This document shows positions 15,837 to 61,511 of a stretch of 64,000 nt of DNA, in pieces. Below the pieces are notes generated by a model. It was not told the origin of the DNA. It ran no database searches and was given only the letters and a program-made list of their open reading frames with translations. Origin of the DNA: Comamonas testosteroni ATCC 11996 (lineage in GTDB: Bacteria; Pseudomonadota; Gammaproteobacteria; Burkholderiales; Burkholderiaceae_C); contig NZ_AHIL01000043.1 in assembly GCF_000241525.1 (NCBI RefSeq), positions 62,001 to 126,000 on the forward strand, written 5' to 3'. A program made the position numbers and the translations under genes. Positions within the stretch are counted from its first letter, which is position 1; every line of letters starts with the position of its first letter.

Positions 15837-16487
15837 ATGAACGTGTTACCCTCACGCCCCATGTCCCGATGGCTTATTGCACTTCTATTTGTCGGCGTTA
15901 CCTCAGCGCACGCGGCGCCTAGCGAGCAGCGTGACGACGACATGGCCCAGTTGCTGGTCAACCGCGGCCTCATCACCCAGTTGCGTGAAGCTCGCCACTC
16001 CGTGGCCGAGAAGACGACTGACTTCGTGCGCGAAGCACGTCAGAACGTGGCCGAAAAAACCTCCGATCTGGTGGTGACGGCCATGGGCTTCCTTGGTGTT
16101 CCCTATCGCCTGGGTGGGACCAACGCCGAAACCGGCTTCGACTGCAGCGGTTTCGTGCGCGCCATCTACTCCCAGACCATGGGCAAGGTTCTGCCTCGCG
16201 TCTCTGCCGAACAGGCCAATGCCACCCAGCAGATCGACCGCAGCGACCTCAAGCCTGGTGATCTGGTGTTTTTCAACACCATGCGCCGCACATTCAGCCA
16301 TGTGGGCATCTACGTGGGTGACGGCAAATTCATCCACGCACCGCGCACCGGTGCCAGCGTGCGCGTGGAAAGCATGCAGACCTCCTACTGGGCGCGCCGC
16401 TTCGACGGCGCCCGTCGCGTCGAAGGCGCTGACGCCTCGGCAACCACGGCTGCTGCATATAGCGCCCTGGGCCCATTGCAGCCCTGA
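15837..16487 (+). CDS. NlpC/P60 family peptidoglycan endopeptidase
   Basis: A 216-residue exported cysteine peptidase likely to cut peptide bonds of peptidoglycan stems. Residues 9-26 are a signal peptide (MSRWLIALLFVGVTSAHA). The NlpC/P60 domain spans about 80-195 with Cys103 (FDCSGFVRAIY), His155 (FSHVGIYVGDG) and His167 (KFIHAPRTG) as the triad. Between signal and domain there is a 14-residue duplication, REAR-x-x-VAEKT-x-D-x-V, at about 50-63 and 66-79, probably a helical linker. The start could also be the ATG at 15861; neither has a strong ribosome site. A classic terminator follows. Confidence 0.9.
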   Translation: MNVLPSRPMSRWLIALLFVGVTSAHAAPSEQRDDDMAQLLVNRGLITQLREARHSVAEKTTDFVREARQNVAEKTSDLVVTAMGFLGVPYRLGGTNAETGFDCSGFVRAIYSQTMGKVLPRVSAEQANATQQIDRSDLKPGDLVFFNTMRRTFSHVGIYVGDGKFIHAPRTGASVRVESMQTSYWARRFDGARRVEGADASATTAAAYSALGPLQP

Positions 16488-16507
16488 TTCCGAATCGGGG
16501 CTTGACC

Positions 16508-16538
16508 AAAACGCCTGCAGAAAGCAGGCGTTTTTGTT
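16508..16538 (+). terminator. Intrinsic terminator of the NlpC/P60 gene
   Basis: Stem aacgcctgc / gcaggcgtt around agaaa, then ttttgtttc, 21 bases after the stop codon. Confidence 0.92.
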
Positions 16539-16684
16539 TCGCCCTTGGGCCCCGATGTAGCCCATGCCTCTGTGTGTTTTCACGCAAGAACCGCGCTCGC
16601 GCCTACATTCAGAATCGTCCGACAGAGTCGAACCGTCGGGCCGCGTAGAGTCACTTTCGTCAAAGCACCAACAGGGAACAGAAT

Positions 16685-16936
16685 ATGTCCATCATCGGAA
16701 CCATCATCGTCGGCCTTATCGTCGGTTTGATTGCTCGGGCCATCAAGCCCGGCAATGACAGCATGGGCTGGATCATGACGATTCTTCTCGGTATCGTCGG
16801 CTCGTTTGTAGCTACCTATCTGGGCTCGGCCATGGGCTGGTACCAGCCCGGACAAACCGCAGGCTGGATTGCATCGGTCATTGGGGCCGTGATTCTTTTG
16901 TTTATTTATGGCATGGTGCGCGGTAAGGCCAACTGA
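16685..16936 (+). CDS. GlsB/YeaQ/YmgE-family stress-response membrane protein
   Basis: An 83-residue protein of the transglycosylase-associated (YeaQ/YmgE) family. It has three predicted TM helices: residues 3-20, 27-47 and 58-77, with the conserved GLIARAIKPG after helix 1 and a Gly-rich second helix (ILLGIVGSFVATYLG). AACAGGGAACAG lies before the ATG. The family is linked to general or acid stress in enterics, but its biochemical role is not known. It stands as its own unit between two terminators. Confidence 0.93.
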   Translation: MSIIGTIIVGLIVGLIARAIKPGNDSMGWIMTILLGIVGSFVATYLGSAMGWYQPGQTAGWIASVIGAVILLFIYGMVRGKAN

Positions 16937-16951
16937 ATCTGAATTCCGACC

Positions 16952-16976
16952 AAAAGGGGCCGACAAGCCCCTTTTT
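16952..16976 (+). terminator. Intrinsic terminator of the GlsB/YeaQ gene
   Basis: Stem aaaaggggc / gcccctttt around cgacaa with a T-run, just past the stop. Confidence 0.9.
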
Positions 16977-17002
16977 CTATTTCCGTCATCTCCTTATCGA
17001 AT

Positions 17003-17608
17003 ATGTGGAAAAAAGACCCGAGCTTCAGAAACCTTAGTGCGACCAGAGCGGAGCGCAAAGACATTGCCCAAGCCGCTGAACGGGCCCGCAAATTACTGAG
17101 AAGACGGGCACTCGTCAGCGCTGCCGCCAGTGCCATCCCCATACCCGGTCTGGACTGGGCTGCAGATGCCGCCCTGCTCGCCCAGCTCTATCCGCGCATC
17201 AACCAGGAGTTCGGGTTGACGCCAGAGCAACTCGACCAACTCACGCCAGGAAAGCGCGAGCAAGTCCAGAAAGCCATCGCCATGGTTGGCTCCGTGCTGA
17301 TCGGCAAGTTCATCACCCGCGACATGGTGCTGCGCCTCGGCAAAGCCATGGGTTTGCGCACGAGCACCAGGCAGGCCGCCAAATATGTGCCGCTACTGGG
17401 CCAGCTCGCAGCTGCGTCCATAGGCTACGCGACGCTGCGCTATCTGGGCGAGCGCCATATTCAGGACTGTATGCGGGTGGTGGAAGAAGCCGAACTGGAC
17501 ATTCCAGGCCGCTGGCTGGACACCCGAAATCTGCTGCAACGCAATAGCGATCTGGTGCGCAATTGGCAGCAGGATCGCGGTCCCTGGCAGCGTGGCCGTG
17601 AAGACTGA
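17003..17608 (+). CDS. DUF697/YcjF-like hypothetical protein
   Basis: A 201-residue protein without a signal peptide. After a basic N-terminus (RARKLLRRRALVSAAAS) it has the motif SAIPIPGLDWAADAALLAQLYPRI in parts; the IP-x-PG-x-D segment and the later KYVPLLGQLAAASIGYATLRYLG recall the DUF697 region of YcjF-type proteins, where two hydrophobic helices may touch the membrane. No catalytic motif is seen. It lies 30 bases before the EVE-domain gene on the same strand and may share its transcript. Function unknown. Confidence 0.75.
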   Translation: MWKKDPSFRNLSATRAERKDIAQAAERARKLLRRRALVSAAASAIPIPGLDWAADAALLAQLYPRINQEFGLTPEQLDQLTPGKREQVQKAIAMVGSVLIGKFITRDMVLRLGKAMGLRTSTRQAAKYVPLLGQLAAASIGYATLRYLGERHIQDCMRVVEEAELDIPGRWLDTRNLLQRNSDLVRNWQQDRGPWQRGRED

Positions 17609-17638
17609 GACAGCTCCCCCCTCACAGACAATGCACCT

Positions 17639-18127
17639 ATGAACGACAGCAGCCCCCAAGCCCATCGTTACTGGCTCATGAAGAACGAGCCCGACGAGTA
17701 CTCCATCGACCATGCTCTGGCATCCCCCGAGCAGACCATTGCCTGGAATGGCGTGCGCAATTACCAGGCACGCAATTTCATGCGTGACGATATGCAGGTG
17801 GGTGACGGCGTGCTGTACTGGCATTCCAGTTGCGCCGAACCCGGGATTTACGGCATTGCCCGCATTGCTGGCAATCTGCGCGTGGACCCTTCCCAGTTCG
17901 ACCCTGCGGACCCCTACTACGACCCAAAGTCACAGACAGACAAACCGCGCTGGCTTATGCTGGATGTGCAGGCGCTGAAAAAGATCCGCCCACTGCTGAT
18001 GCCGGAACTACGCGAGCAACCTCAACTGGCGCAGATGCGCGTGCTGCAAAAAGGCAATCGTCTCTCCATTACCCCCGTGACCGAAGCCGAATGGCAATGC
18101 ATTCAGTCTCTGCTGCAAGAGAGTTGA
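17639..18127 (+). CDS. EVE-domain protein
   Basis: A 162-residue single EVE domain, related to PUA and YTH folds, which bind modified bases in DNA or RNA. The family markers are present: WLMKNEPDEYSID at the N-terminus, WNGVRNYQARNFMRDDM, GDGVLYWHSS, GIYGIARI, and DPKSQTDKPRWLMLDV. This is the full usual length. Bacterial single-domain members are widespread and their ligands are mostly unknown. It follows the DUF697-like gene by 30 bases, and no modification or restriction genes are next to it. Confidence 0.92.
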   Translation: MNDSSPQAHRYWLMKNEPDEYSIDHALASPEQTIAWNGVRNYQARNFMRDDMQVGDGVLYWHSSCAEPGIYGIARIAGNLRVDPSQFDPADPYYDPKSQTDKPRWLMLDVQALKKIRPLLMPELREQPQLAQMRVLQKGNRLSITPVTEAEWQCIQSLLQES

Positions 18128-18416
18128 GGCTGAGCATGTGCATGCTCTTCCTGTCATAGCAAGCTGTGCTGATACTGGCGTGAAATTAATGCGATTTCCA
18201 TCATAAGCAATCTCGAGAGTAACAAAATCCGATAATGCCGGCTTTGCGTTGCTGCCCGACCCAAGGCTCAGCGGAACCCAAGAACGGTGCCCTGCTTCAG
18301 GGTATGTCCTAACCATTAATAACACAGTGGCAACCAAGCTGAGACTCATCTCTGCGGCGCATTGCCACGCGCAGGCCGGTGCAGATTTTGTGCCGGCTCT
18401 CTTGTTCTTGTAGAAG
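18128..18416 (+). promoter_or_regulatory. Candidate structured leader of puuP
   Basis: This 289-base untranslated stretch ends at the puuP start and shows several potential pairings on the plus strand. A small hairpin gccct-gcttc-agggt lies at 18289-18303. Segment gtggcaa (18327-18333) can pair with ttgccac (18362-18368). Segment ctgcg (18352-18356) can pair with cgcag (18370-18374); the two pairings cross, so they would form a pseudoknot or exclude each other. A stable terminator-like hairpin follows at 18375-18397. It matches none of the riboswitch consensus sequences I can recall (TPP, guanidine-I/II, SAM, SAH, glycine). Attenuation is an inference. Confidence 0.4.
18375..18410 (+). terminator. 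Terminator-like hairpin just before the puuP start codon
   Basis: Stem gccggtgca / tgtgccggc (nine pairs, two of them G-U) around gattt, followed by tctcttgttcttg. It ends about 20 bases before the ATG, where a terminator makes sense only as a control switch. Confidence 0.55.
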
Positions 18417-19829
18417 ATGACTGCACTGACTGATCGCCCTCCCTTGGCAGCCTCGACCACCTCCCCCGCTCGCCTGCAAAAGACTCTGCTGCTATGGCAT
18501 GTGGTCATCATCGGCCTGGCCTACATCCAGCCGATGACATTGCTGGACACTTTCGGCATGGTCTCGCGCGATTCGCTGCAGCATGTGCCCACCTCCTACT
18601 TCGTTGCCTTGCTGGCAGTGCTGCTGACCTCGCTGAGCTACGGCCACATGATCCGGCGCTACCCCTCCTCGGGCTCGGCCTACACCTATGCGCAAAAGGC
18701 CATTCACCCCAATGTGGGCTTCATGGTGGGCTGGTCGTCGTTGTTGGACTACCTGCTCTCGCCCATGGTCAATATCTTGCTGGCAAGGATCTATCTGACC
18801 TCCATGTTCCCCGAGGTCAACCACTGGGTCTGGATCTTCGGCCTGACCGCGCTGATGGTCTGCGTGAATCTGCGCGGCATTCGCTTTGTCGCCCATTTCA
18901 ACGGCTTGATCGTCTTCTTCCAACTGCTCATCATCGCCATCTTCACCTGCATGGTCTGGCGCGATCTGCATGCAGGCCGCAATGCCCTGGGCGCGATTGC
19001 CGAACATGGTGGCCAGGGCCTGTGGACGCTGTCGCCCTTCTGGAGCTCCCAGGCCGAAATCGGCGCACTGATTACGGGAGCCACCATTCTCTGTTTTTCG
19101 TTCACAGGCTTTGACTCACTGAGTTCACTGGCCGAAGAGACCCACGACACCCGAAACACCTTGCCCAAGGCCATTTTTCTGACGGCACTGATTTCCGGCC
19201 TGATCTTCATCGCGGCCACTTATTTTCTGCAGCTCTATTTCCCCGGCGACCCCAGTCGATACTTCGAGGCCGTGGACGAAACCCAACCCGAGATCCTCTA
19301 TCTGGTGGGCGGAGCACTGTTCAAGTCTGTGGTGCTGTCCTTTGCCATCGTCACCGTCATGGCCTCGGGCATCGCGGCTCACGCGGGTGTATCGCGCCTG
19401 ATGTATGTGATGGGCCGCGACGGCGTGATCCACAAGCGCTTCTTCGGCCATATCAGCCCCAAGTCCTTCACGCCTTCCTACAACATTGTGCTGGTGGGCG
19501 CGGTGGCCCTGACCGCTGGCTTTCTGAGCCTGGAATATGTGGTCGCCCTGATCAGCTTCGGCGCGCTGACGGCTTTCAGTTTTGTCAATCTGTCGGTGCT
19601 GGCTGAATACATGTGGCGCCAGGGCTGCTGGCACAGTCCAGGCGACCTGCTGCGCTATCTTGTCACCCCGGTGCTGGGCTTCATGAGCGTAGGCGCCATG
19701 TGGCTGGAGGTGGAGCCCAGCTCGCTGAGTTCGGGCCTTATCTGGGGCAGCATCGGCCTTGTCTATCTGGCCATCATCACCAGTGGCTTTCGCAAGACCC
19801 CACCCCAATACGACGACTCGGCGGACTGA
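18417..19829 (+). CDS. puuP: Putrescine importer, APC family
   Basis: A 470-residue amino acid/polyamine/organocation transporter with about 12 TM helices. It follows the E. coli PuuP pattern as I remember it almost segment by segment: GLAYIQPMTLLDTFGMVS, SYGHMIRRYPSSGSAYTYAQK, VGFMVGWSSLLDYL, CFSFTGFDSLSSLAEET, ASGIAAHAGVSRLMYVMGRD and the C-terminal SLSSGLIWGSIGLVYL. Import of putrescine with protons is therefore likely. No puuA-D catabolic genes are adjacent. The unusual feature is the long leader with a terminator-like hairpin, which suggests control by transcription attenuation. Confidence 0.88.
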   Translation: MTALTDRPPLAASTTSPARLQKTLLLWHVVIIGLAYIQPMTLLDTFGMVSRDSLQHVPTSYFVALLAVLLTSLSYGHMIRRYPSSGSAYTYAQKAIHPNVGFMVGWSSLLDYLLSPMVNILLARIYLTSMFPEVNHWVWIFGLTALMVCVNLRGIRFVAHFNGLIVFFQLLIIAIFTCMVWRDLHAGRNALGAIAEHGGQGLWTLSPFWSSQAEIGALITGATILCFSFTGFDSLSSLAEETHDTRNTLPKAIFLTALISGLIFIAATYFLQLYFPGDPSRYFEAVDETQPEILYLVGGALFKSVVLSFAIVTVMASGIAAHAGVSRLMYVMGRDGVIHKRFFGHISPKSFTPSYNIVLVGAVALTAGFLSLEYVVALISFGALTAFSFVNLSVLAEYMWRQGCWHSPGDLLRYLVTPVLGFMSVGAMWLEVEPSSLSSGLIWGSIGLVYLAIITSGFRKTPPQYDDSAD

Positions 19830-19926
19830 TCCGCCGGCCTGCATTTTCGGATGGCGTGGCGTATTTCCCACAAGGCAATCTCGCCGCGCCCTCTAACATC
19901 CTTGAATCGGAGTCTGATCGACCGCC

Positions 19927-21015
19927 ATGCCAAGGAGTTTGAGATTGCGCTGGAGCACCCCGTTCATGCTGGCCTGGCGTCGTGCCAAGACCACTTTTCC
20001 ATCGCGGGCCAGGCTGGCCCTGCGTGATGCGATTGCTGCAGCACTGGCCAGCATGCTGGCCTGGGTCATCGCCCAGCAGCTTTGGGGCCACCCCAAGCCC
20101 GCCTTCGCCGTGGTCACCGCCGTGATCTGCCTCGCCCCGGGACTGCCCAGCCATCTGAAACAGGCGCGCAGTCTGCTCATAGGCTGCACACTGGGCATCG
20201 TGATCGGCGATCTGCTGTGGCAGTTGCCCGAGCAGCATCTGTTGCTGCGCATGAGTCTTGGCGCATTCCTCTCCATCCTGCTCGGCGCCATCATCGGCCC
20301 CGCACCCGTGGTGCCTATTCAAGCCGGGGTCTCGGTGATTCTGGTGCTGGTGCTCGGCCCCAGCATGGCGGGCGGAGCGCGTCTGCTGGACGTCACGGTC
20401 GGTGCTGCGGTCGGGCTTATCTTCAGCCAGGTGCTGCTGACCTCCAATCCCATCAAGGATATGGGCCGGGCCGCCTCGATCTTTCTCAAGCAGCTTGCCA
20501 ACGGTCTGGATCTGATTCTCAAGGCCTGCCAGCAGCAAAAAGCCGATGCAGCCGAAACCGCCCTCGGCCAGCTATCACTGGCCCATGAATCGCTGGCCGC
20601 CCTGCGCGCCGCCGTAGGCCAGGCCCATTCCTCACGCCGCTGGTCCTTGCGCGGACGACTCAATGCAGAGCGACTGGCTTTTGTCACCCGCCGCTATGAC
20701 CGCCATGCCGTGCGCGTCTATGCCACGGCTCTGCTGCTGGCCGAAAGTCTGAACCGTGCCACCGCCCACACCGGGAAGCCGCCGCCTGCGGCGATGGCCG
20801 ACTACTGCCGCTGGCTGACGCATGCCTGTCTCGATCTGGCCAATCAGCCAACCGTGGTCGCGCTCAAGGCCGATGATCCACTGGCGATCATGGACAGCTG
20901 CCCTGCATCAACTGCACCGACTGAAGTACTTCAGCCCGAATGGCTGCTGGTGCATGAAAACGCCCAGCAACTGGAGCGTGCATTGCGCGCCCTTATCGGC
21001 TCGCGCGATGCGTGA
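19927..21015 (+). CDS. Aromatic acid exporter-like (FUSC/ArAE) membrane protein
   Basis: A 362-residue protein. The N-terminal half has about six TM helices starting with RLALRDAIAAALASMLAWVIAQ and including the FAVVTAVICLAPGLPSHLKQA region, characteristic of the ArAE/FUSC superfamily (AaeB- and YeeA-like). The C-terminal half (from about residue 190) is soluble and helical. Full AaeB proteins are about twice this size, so this is the single-unit type. Export of aromatic acids or a related organic is inferred from the family. It stands alone between puuP and a convergent amidohydrolase. Confidence 0.75.
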   Translation: MPRSLRLRWSTPFMLAWRRAKTTFPSRARLALRDAIAAALASMLAWVIAQQLWGHPKPAFAVVTAVICLAPGLPSHLKQARSLLIGCTLGIVIGDLLWQLPEQHLLLRMSLGAFLSILLGAIIGPAPVVPIQAGVSVILVLVLGPSMAGGARLLDVTVGAAVGLIFSQVLLTSNPIKDMGRAASIFLKQLANGLDLILKACQQQKADAAETALGQLSLAHESLAALRAAVGQAHSSRRWSLRGRLNAERLAFVTRRYDRHAVRVYATALLLAESLNRATAHTGKPPPAAMADYCRWLTHACLDLANQPTVVALKADDPLAIMDSCPASTAPTEVLQPEWLLVHENAQQLERALRALIGSRDA

Positions 21016-21063
21016 AAAACATTCACCCAGACGAACACCTATCAATCGCAAGCAGCCCTCAAA

Positions 21064-22818
21064 TCAGAAGTTTGCCCCGTCGCGCTTGTAAACCGTGCGC
21101 CCTTCCTTGATGGTCTCCAGCACCTGAAGATTGGCAAGCTGATGAGACTCCACGGTCAGCGGGTTGTCCGAAAGCACGACCAGATCAGCCAGCTTGCCGA
21201 CTTCGATGGAGCCCTTGCGGTCTTCCTCGAAATGCTGGTAGGCCGACCAGATGGTCTGCGCCTTGAGCGCCACCCAGGGCGAGACGCGATGCTCAGGCCC
21301 CAGCACGCGGCCCGAACGCGTGGTGCGATTGACGGTGGCATCGAGCACGCGCATCGATGACGGCAGAGCAACAGGTGCATCGTGGTGAGAAGTGAACACC
21401 ATGCCCTCGCCCAGCACCCAGCCTGTCGGCGAAATGTTCTGCGCGCGCGGATCGCCGAGCACCGAATCATGGTGCCAATCGCCCCAGTAAAAGGTATGCA
21501 TGGGAAACAGCGATGGGAAAATGCCCAGCTCCTTGAGCTGGCTCACCTGGTCCCGCCGCAGCGTCTGTCCGTGGATCAGCACAGGGCGAACGGCACGCGC
21601 CTGCTCCACCGGGCCGCTGGCACGTACAGCTGCGATGAACTGATCGATCGCCGCGTCACCGTTGCCATGCACCAGAATCTGCCAGCCGTTGTGAATGGCC
21701 TTGGCCACCTGCTCATTGGCCCTGACATCGCTGAGCACCCCGTAGCCACGATAGCCGGGCTGCTGGCCATCGGGCGGCACCAGATAGGGCTCGGTCAGCC
21801 AGGCGGTCTTGCCCTGGGGCGAGCCATCAAGCGTGAGCTTGACACCGCCAATGCGGAAGCGATTGGTATAGCTGCGACTGAACTTGAGCTTGTTGGCCAG
21901 CGCGCCGTCGCCCAGTTGCAGTATGTCGGGATAGGACACCACGTCGATGACCAGCCGACGCGACTCGGCAGCCGCCATGGCCGAGGCAATGGCGCCTGCG
22001 TCGGAGCGACCGTCCTGCACCGTGGTATAGCCGAACTCCAGATAGAGCTGCTGGGCTTTTTCCAGCCAGTCCATGGATTGCTCCAGCGTGAGCTTGGGCA
22101 TGATCCTGCCCAGGCTGTGGAAGAAGGCGTTCTCCTCCAGCACCCCGTTGGGCACCGGGCTGCCGGCACGGCGGCGGATCACGCCGCCCTCTGGATTGGG
22201 TGTGCCGGGACCGATGCCAGCACGGGCCAGGGCCGCAGAATTGAGTGCACCGAAGTGCCCGGACTGGTGAATCACGGCAATCGGCAGATCCCGGGAGACG
22301 GCATCGAGGTCATCACGTGTGGGATGGCGCCGCTCCTGAAGCTGGGAATCGTCATAACCAAAGCCGAGCACGATACCCAGCTGTTTGACCTCGGGCGAAG
22401 TCTGGATGTATTCACGCAGCGTCTGCTGCAAGTCGGCGATAGAGGCGTTGCCGCCGTCGGGCGGGGGCAGCAGATTGGCCGAAATTGCCTGCAGCCCCAC
22501 GCCGCCGATATGGCTGTGCGGGTCCACAAAACCCGGAATCAGCGTGCGCCCCTGCAAGTCCACCATGCGCGTGGCAGCGCCGCGCAAGGCCTCCAGCTCC
22601 TGAGCCGAGCCAATTGCAGTAATCATCCCGGCGCTAACGGCCACGGCCTCCACCTGAGGCTGTGCGTCATTCATGGTGAGAATCGGGCCGCCGTAATAGA
22701 TCAGCTCGGCCGGCTTGACCGCCGTCTTGGTACGACGCGAGGCACAGCCCGCGAGCCAGGGCGTTGATGACAATGCCGTCAGCGAAGCTGCGGTGGCGAG
22801 AAACTGGCGCTTTTGCAT
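21064..22818 (-). CDS. Exported amidohydrolase, YtcJ-like (amidohydrolase 3 family)
   Basis: A 584-residue metal-dependent hydrolase. I start at the ATG at 22818: GGAGG is six bases upstream, and an adjacent ATG at 22821 is too close. The N-terminus MQKRQFLATAASL ends in a lipobox-like WLAGC, so the protein is probably a lipoprotein. The metal motif is VDPHSHIGG, the second His pair lies near VLIHGQTLRR, and the C-terminal GSIEVGKLADLVVLSDNPL is the usual closure. YtcJ-type enzymes hydrolyse N-substituted formamides or related amides; the substrate is open. The next upstream gene on the same strand is an MFS carrier, 166 bases away. Confidence 0.85.
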   Translation of the reverse strand: MQKRQFLATAASLTALSSTPWLAGCASRRTKTAVKPAELIYYGGPILTMNDAQPQVEAVAVSAGMITAIGSAQELEALRGAATRMVDLQGRTLIPGFVDPHSHIGGVGLQAISANLLPPPDGGNASIADLQQTLREYIQTSPEVKQLGIVLGFGYDDSQLQERRHPTRDDLDAVSRDLPIAVIHQSGHFGALNSAALARAGIGPGTPNPEGGVIRRRAGSPVPNGVLEENAFFHSLGRIMPKLTLEQSMDWLEKAQQLYLEFGYTTVQDGRSDAGAIASAMAAAESRRLVIDVVSYPDILQLGDGALANKLKFSRSYTNRFRIGGVKLTLDGSPQGKTAWLTEPYLVPPDGQQPGYRGYGVLSDVRANEQVAKAIHNGWQILVHGNGDAAIDQFIAAVRASGPVEQARAVRPVLIHGQTLRRDQVSQLKELGIFPSLFPMHTFYWGDWHHDSVLGDPRAQNISPTGWVLGEGMVFTSHHDAPVALPSSMRVLDATVNRTTRSGRVLGPEHRVSPWVALKAQTIWSAYQHFEEDRKGSIEVGKLADLVVLSDNPLTVESHQLANLQVLETIKEGRTVYKRDGANF

Positions 22819-44396: not shown

Positions 44397-44424
44397 TAAA
44401 AAAGGCAGCCCGAAGGCTGCCTTT
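44397..44424 (-). terminator. Terminator of the pyruvate dehydrogenase operon
   Basis: Stem aaaggcagcc / ggctgccttt with a UUCG-type loop on the transcribed minus strand and a T-run after it, 35 bases past the lpdA stop. Confidence 0.93.
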
Positions 44425-58630: not shown

Positions 58631-58657
58631 AAAAAGCGCCCCTCCAGGGCGCTTTTT
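58631..58657 (+). terminator. Intrinsic terminator of prlC
   Basis: Stem aaaaagcgccc / gggcgcttttt around ctcca, 20 bases past the stop. Confidence 0.93.
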
Positions 58658-59600: not shown

Positions 59601-59632
59601 AAAAAAAGCCACCTGCACAAGCAGGTGGCTTT
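59601..59632 (-). terminator. Intrinsic terminator of rpiA
   Basis: A 12-bp stem (aaagccacctgc / gcaggtggcttt) around acaa, with a run of T on the minus strand, 18 bases past the rpiA stop. Confidence 0.92.
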
Positions 59633-61472: not shown

Positions 61473-61511
61473 AAACAGCCCGTCATGCCTGAGCCTGACG
61501 GGCTGTTTTTT
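61473..61511 (+). terminator. Intrinsic terminator of pyrD
   Basis: A 13-bp stem (aaacagcccgtca / tgacgggctgttt) with a 10-base loop and a T-run. It may serve the convergent minus-strand genes as well, since the stem is near-symmetrical. Confidence 0.93.

Follow-up and report, generated by a model that had tools for sequence, protein, structure and literature searches.

The leader of the plaP-type importer gene in the Comamonas testosteroni ATCC 11996 window (the whole stretch of 64,000 nucleotides that was analysed) is probably a new and narrowly distributed candidate for a cis-regulatory leader RNA, and one that appears not to have been described before, as judged from sequence comparison. 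The conserved RNA occupies positions 18279–18410, where three hairpins (P2, P3, and P4) are enclosed by a closing helix (P1) whose 3' end is next to the Shine-Dalgarno region. We would give an even chance to the reading that this leader is a conserved four-helix RNA, acting in cis and mainly at the translation initiation of the importer gene.

Architecture and comparative support

Our DNA search with positions 18128–18480, covering 289 bases of leader and the first 64 of the gene, matched 13 of 53 genomes of the genus, and 13 species-level Comamonas sequences out of 15 orthologs linked to an EVE-domain gene were aligned with MAFFT. Among these 15, P1 is altered or absent in three; L027 and L029 were left out because the P1 5' strand is missing from their leaders, and L026 was retained despite its diverged P1. 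Unconstrained RNAalifold on the plain MAFFT alignment (n = 13) yielded P1 to P4, with a z of −5.7 for the consensus fold and none of 1000 column shuffles being equally good. Here, 93.6% of the 344 pair cells were kept, as against 36.9–48.8% with the partners slid by 1–3 columns. Both sides had changed with the pairing kept in nine of 27 pairs, five of them in P3, a count reached by 1 of 500 shuffles. The model-refitted alignment, which itself leans towards the structure, gave the same result, with 0 of 500 shuffles for the both-side changes. One of the five measures, the occurrence of further pair types, was not above the shuffles (192 of 500, and 259 of 500 on the model-refitted alignment). 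When folded singly, the leader was unremarkable, as 46 of 200 shuffles were at least as stable for positions 18128–18416 (z −0.61) and 19 of 200 for positions 18320–18440 (z −1.57). The leader alone is no stabler than shuffled sequence, and therefore the case rests on comparison, where the signal in these sequences, unlike that from single-sequence folding, is well above chance.

All of the elements of this RNA are on the + strand. P1 joins the 5' strand CAAGAAC (18279–18285) to the 3' strand GTTCTTG (18404–18410), with 97.8% of its cells paired in the 13 sequences, a column conservation of 0.98 (98% on both strands), four of seven pairs invariant, and no both-side change. This is followed by the P2 hairpin at 18287–18305 (18287–18293 with 18299–18305), in which 92.2% of the cells are paired and two of seven pairs have both-side changes, and then by the joining segment J2/3 (18306–18326), a candidate recognition region. 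The P3 hairpin at 18327–18368 (18327–18333 with 18362–18368) has 92.3% of its cells paired and both-side changes in five of seven pairs; it is the gtggcaa/ttgccac pairing of the original prediction, which does covary in the relatives. Between P3 and P4 is the joining segment J3/4 (GCGCAG, 18369–18374), unpaired in the consensus. P4 (18375–18397), the hairpin described earlier as terminator-like, has six consensus pairs, with 91.7% of the cells paired and two pairs with both-side changes. Taken as a whole, the helices and joints are conserved and the loops are not, the column conservation being 0.50 and 0.57 for loops L3 and L4 versus 0.76 and 0.94 for J2/3 and J3/4. On these sequence comparisons, P2, P3, and P4 are supported by covariation, and P1 by its conserved perfect complementarity and position.

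Neither P1 nor P2 figured in the original prediction, and P1 takes as its 3' strand part of what was there called a T-rich run. The nine-pair hairpin proposed before the start codon checked out in its coordinates (18375–18383 with 18389–18397), about 20 nt 5' of the annotated ATG at 18417, and it is followed by TCTCTTGTTCTTG; this run, on the other hand, is interrupted by C and G and is therefore no proper U-tract. Similarly, the proposed crossing of ctgcg and cgcag is present in the window, though it is not conserved, as such spacing occurs in four of the 13 leaders, the window included. Both motifs are also found in L028, but with CTGCG further upstream. The broader idea, that a putrescine-type importer is preceded by an RNA element, is borne out, since 13 of the 15 EVE-linked orthologs keep the element with compensatory changes. 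A lack of stem conservation upstream of orthologs had been set beforehand as refuting; within this group the stems are conserved, and the idea survives, while the other orthologs searched gave no match.

We regard it as distinctly improbable that the pairing merely combines shared ancestry with chance, or that the leader does no switching and simply provides a stable 5' end or binds a protein. Such a view gains from the relatedness of the 13 sequences, from shuffle controls that do not preserve phylogeny, and from the mixed P1 energies given below. Against this, sliding the partners, a control that keeps the phylogeny, cut the pairing to 37–49% and the both-side changes to 0–4 pairs.

Gene context and distribution

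The gene behind the leader (18417–19829, + strand) encodes a 470-residue APC permease (PF00324/PF13520) of the PlaP/PuuP type, a putative putrescine importer as judged from its homologs. A tblastn search of plasmid records gave about 54–55% identity to the PlaP of E. coli (about 54%), Klebsiella, and Salmonella, annotated as putrescine importer, and 61–67% to the Acinetobacter homologs of the permease, and therefore the earlier name puuP was correct in kind. Nothing in NCBIfam scored above the curated cut-off for this protein. Close orthologs were found in 28 of the 53 genus genomes (E ≤ 1e-40) and in two of 399 evenly drawn family genomes (E ≤ 1e-60), both of the same genus. A domain search placed an EVE-domain gene (17639–18127) directly upstream of the leader. 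Such a gene directly precedes 15 of the orthologs (L015–L029), and was found at E ≤ 1e-5 in none of 12 other loci tested, one of which (L036) offered only a short upstream sequence.

The covariance model, trained on the 13 sequences, gave strong matches (E ≤ 1.7e-25) in 13 of the 53 genus genomes, one in each and before the permease gene, these being its own training sequences and not independent support. The 53 genomes yielded no other strong copy. There was a weak remnant at the plaP locus of one genome (G043, E 0.042), and the other weak matches (E ≥ 0.018) were set aside as chance-like, lying elsewhere than plaP. In a smaller search, L027 and L029 matched weakly, and there was no match at 11 further loci of Comamonas or at 12 of Moraxellaceae. 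Four of the 399 family genomes matched at E ≤ 0.01; two are genus members and the only strong ones, and the other two (E about 0.0075, with their genes unmapped) appear to be chance-like. As far as was searched, and on sequence matches, the leader is a single-gene element of one Comamonas species group.

With Rfam release 15 (4227 models), no match reached the gathering threshold in the 64-kb window, and none was found at E ≤ 10 over 18100–18450, SAM-I included, in agreement with the earlier statement that no known riboswitch class could be recognized. For the ortholog L023, three matches were far below threshold (e.g., SAH riboswitch, 11.4 versus 37 bits), and the remaining Rfam searches returned two tRNAs only, or matches far below threshold.

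Further upstream, GATAAT (18231–18236, + strand) is a candidate promoter −10 element, and stands at the matching place in 15 of 15 EVE-linked orthologs. Our consensus scan of positions 16000–22000 listed no sigma-70 site. We noticed that GATAAT precedes a GC-rich stretch with a T-run (18231–18250 and equivalents, with GCG-TTTTT-CGC in several orthologs), an arrangement that is similar in L032 and loosely similar in Acinetobacter. This could be the GC-rich discriminator of a stringent-type promoter. A supposed DNA repeat at 18140–18215 was discarded, as its own genome has no convincing second copy (best other match, E 0.1).

Termination, leader peptides, and translation initiation

According to the original prediction, P4 and the U-rich tract would form an intrinsic terminator that is opened or closed by alternative pairing, i.e., a transcription attenuator. 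We now find this unlikely. P4 is indeed stable and GC-rich (nine pairs, −14.0 kcal/mol) with a U-rich stretch behind it, and a pattern scan, counting 11 pairs, listed it as a terminator-like site. Moreover, L029, which is not among the 13, has the d-score of a terminator (+7.3, the sole positive among 14 loci scored), and a hairpin overlapping P4 (18351–18385; UCUGC/GCAGA followed by UUUU) comes 14th among the window's 216 candidates on the + strand, albeit with a negative score (−14.6). However, the best d-score at the P4 site is −16.8 in the window, and the scores are negative in 13 of 13 members. By comparison, 22 other window sites, putative terminators chosen by the same d-score, have a value above 0 (nine on the + strand and 13 on the − strand, the top ones at +22 to +55). 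In addition, the GTTCTTG of the tract is accounted for by P1, L026 has lost the U-rich tract with the hairpin remaining, and no conserved antiterminator pairing was found, ctgcg/cgcag occurring in four of 13 leaders. Terminator-based attenuation is not well supported, in view of the negative d-scores, the tract lost in L026, and the unconserved crossing pair, and the leader is probably not a simple terminator. Given the poor terminator tail in all 13 members, control is likely placed at translation initiation instead.

Some further observations concern hairpins of this kind. The terminator scan of 6 kb on both strands gave nine sites versus 4.0 ± 2.5 in shuffles. The terminator-like hairpins of the window that score above 0 on the + as well as the − strand, and that served as a yardstick, include those at 16512–16530, 16956–16971, 44404–44421, 58636–58652, 59608–59629, and 61476–61505. 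In L029, we noticed by eye a CCTTTG/CAAAGG pairing across its own Shine-Dalgarno sequence.

Very improbable, in our estimate, is control by a leader peptide that overlaps the structure, such as the one encoded by a GTG-initiated ORF at 18327–18413, whose end is three bases before the ATG. A 28-codon ORF with a PALLFL or SALLFL ending is found in L015–L019, shorter ORFs end with PALLFL in L020 or ALFL in L028, and related Comamonas outside the EVE-linked group do have a conserved leader peptide. Nonetheless, there is no codon-position bias in L015–L019 (40, 40, and 30 changes by position), where the codon differences summed over 10 pairs are 22 synonymous versus 68 non-synonymous, and in L020 single-base deletions shift the frame with the hairpin kept. 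This GTG leader peptide was consequently rejected as a selected feature.

As regards the start region, the purine-rich AGAAG (18412–18416, + strand) is Shine-Dalgarno-like, aligns near AGAAGGAAG in the relatives, and would presumably serve in ribosome binding. We noticed that AGAAG directly abuts the ATG at 18417, because of which the annotated start may be misplaced or unusual. The annotated ATG is missing in L021–L025 and L028, and the likely start there is a TTG aligned with the CTG at 18426–18428 of the window; TTG also closes the Acinetobacter leaders. In L018, a CCG at the CTG position favours ATG as its start.

Control of the importer would probably be exerted at the translation start, as modelled by folding with P1 either forced or its 5' strand blocked. 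With P1 forced, the Shine-Dalgarno region was predicted to become more accessible in eight of 12 sequences, and for the window the predicted values were 0.83 (forced) versus 0.33 (blocked), with the ensembles 1 kcal/mol apart. In the other four (L020, L023, L025, and L028) this effect was absent or reversed. On longer segments, the P1 ensemble was the more stable in six of 12 and the less stable in five (by 3.9 kcal/mol in L016, 5.3 in L023, 1.0 in L025 and L028, and 0.1 in L019), with no difference in L018. On shorter segments, P1 pairing was low in L016, L018, and L019 and high in the other nine of 12. Where the window RNA lacks the P1 5' strand, pairing between the P4 5' arm and the Shine-Dalgarno/start region is predicted; this would represent the closed state. 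We envisage a leader RNA that would control, in cis, the gene that immediately follows it. With P1 and P4 formed, the CUUGUUCUUG strand would be kept off the Shine-Dalgarno region. With P1 open, the Shine-Dalgarno/start region could pair either with the CUUGUUCUU strand or, in the RNA of the window itself, with the P4 5' arm. The balance could be tipped by a metabolite (a polyamine or some other), by a protein, or by temperature.

Related leaders and known RNA systems

Genes of the plaP type in Acinetobacter have a different conserved leader with two hairpins (60 distinct leaders; column-shuffle z −8.4, 0 of 200). The 60 came from 65 of 66 Moraxellaceae loci, with L122 not anchored and L120 visibly misplaced in the alignment. 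The trimmed set had 40 distinct leaders (24 of them in alignment A5), with L060, L065, L117, and L120 excluded beforehand, and was also without L122 (no start match) and the untrimmed L059, L119, and L123. In most of these loci (L059–L124, nearly all Acinetobacter), we observed a strongly conserved leader about 80 nt before a TTG start (e.g., L093:2912–2991), with a GGGGATCGTT/AACGATCC hairpin, then TGATCCTTGATCA, and then an almost invariant Shine-Dalgarno/start region; L060, L065, and L117 deviate. The loci compared with Rfam gave no match. The leader contains GATC palindromes, for which reason it could also be a DNA operator. Upstream peptides are encoded in other Comamonas, as RPxAKPP plus F within two residues is found in seven of 12 leaders that have no EVE neighbour (L030, L031, L033, L034, L038, L041, and L055), and another shared upstream ORF, beginning with MPP and containing RLRVAVGW, in three of the 12 (L035, L037, and L040). 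The RPxAKPP motif is near the end of its ORF, which stops shortly before the start region of the importer, and the product is possibly an arrest peptide. Homology of the four-helix leader to the Acinetobacter or other Comamonas leaders was considered and rejected, as the five of 45 local alignments at ≤ 6 of 300 shuffles were all short stretches. With the P1–P4 RNA, the Acinetobacter two-hairpin element, and the Comamonas upstream peptides, several kinds of leader thus precede one gene family.

That the P1–P4 junction might be the putative aptamer of a true metabolite riboswitch, for putrescine or another polyamine, we consider unlikely. The PlaP-type importer downstream, the P1-closed multi-helix form with its conserved joints and covarying helices (P1 itself not covarying), and the lack of a matching Rfam class are all in keeping with it. 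Yet the element was seen, in the genomes searched, in one group of one genus and before one gene, and the known spermidine riboswitch is, in the accessible part of its description, a SAM-I variant (PMC10853860), with no SAM-I match at 18100–18450. Quite unlikely is the fuller proposal of a new riboswitch class, so far seen in the Comamonas group only, in which the P1-closed four-helix RNA would sense putrescine (or a different diamine) and set importer translation, as one of several unrelated post-transcriptional controls on PlaP-type importers.

The four-helix leader shares features with several known systems. Like translational riboswitches of the kind that sequester the Shine-Dalgarno sequence, the Comamonas leader is a closed multi-helix RNA directly before a Shine-Dalgarno region, with predicted alternative pairings to it; unlike these, it has no second gene and no Rfam family, and its ligand is only hypothetical. 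The speF leader carries a leader peptide, whereas a selected one was not found in the Comamonas leader. The two would be alike in their alternative mRNA conformations, which in the Salmonella speF leader control a polyamine gene, as stated in the accessible part of the report (PMC6386406). The spermidine riboswitch, as far as its description is accessible, is associated with biosynthesis genes that include speE, speB, and speD (PMC10853860), and is likewise a cis-acting leader RNA on polyamine-related genes, but with a SAM-I-like aptamer. The potE (WRC-18-1) motif, from the accessible part of its survey, occurs in Veillonella and environmental samples, is poorly supported by covariation, and is about 200 nt from its gene (PMC8632094). 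This motif is also a candidate leader RNA, placed before a putrescine-ornithine antiporter gene, whereas the Comamonas leader abuts its gene and covaries. The main texts of three motif surveys, so far as accessible to a term search, mention neither Comamonas nor Acinetobacter (PMC11109978, PMC8632094, and PMC6429828). Titles and abstract openings contained no prior report of a Comamonas plaP leader, a search that mostly did not extend to subscription papers, preprints, and supplements. The Acinetobacter leader, for its part, precedes the same gene family and is a conserved leader ending at the start codon, but consists of two short GATC-rich hairpins, and none of the 12 Moraxellaceae loci searched matches the Comamonas model.

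Polyamine-sensing RNAs have long been expected. The literature searched, in its accessible part, yielded one validated class of polyamine riboswitch, with the evidence for earlier claims judged unconvincing (PMC10853860). A covarying leader that has no Rfam match and is tied to one importer would offer a small and specific system for RNA polyamine sensing in proteobacteria. If the fuller riboswitch proposal is true, several unrelated post-transcriptional controls would act on PlaP-type importers, namely the Comamonas RNA, the GATC-rich hairpin leader of Acinetobacter, and the AKPP-containing peptide in other Comamonas. Different conserved leaders on PlaP-type genes across lineages would suggest that post-transcriptional control of putrescine uptake has evolved repeatedly.
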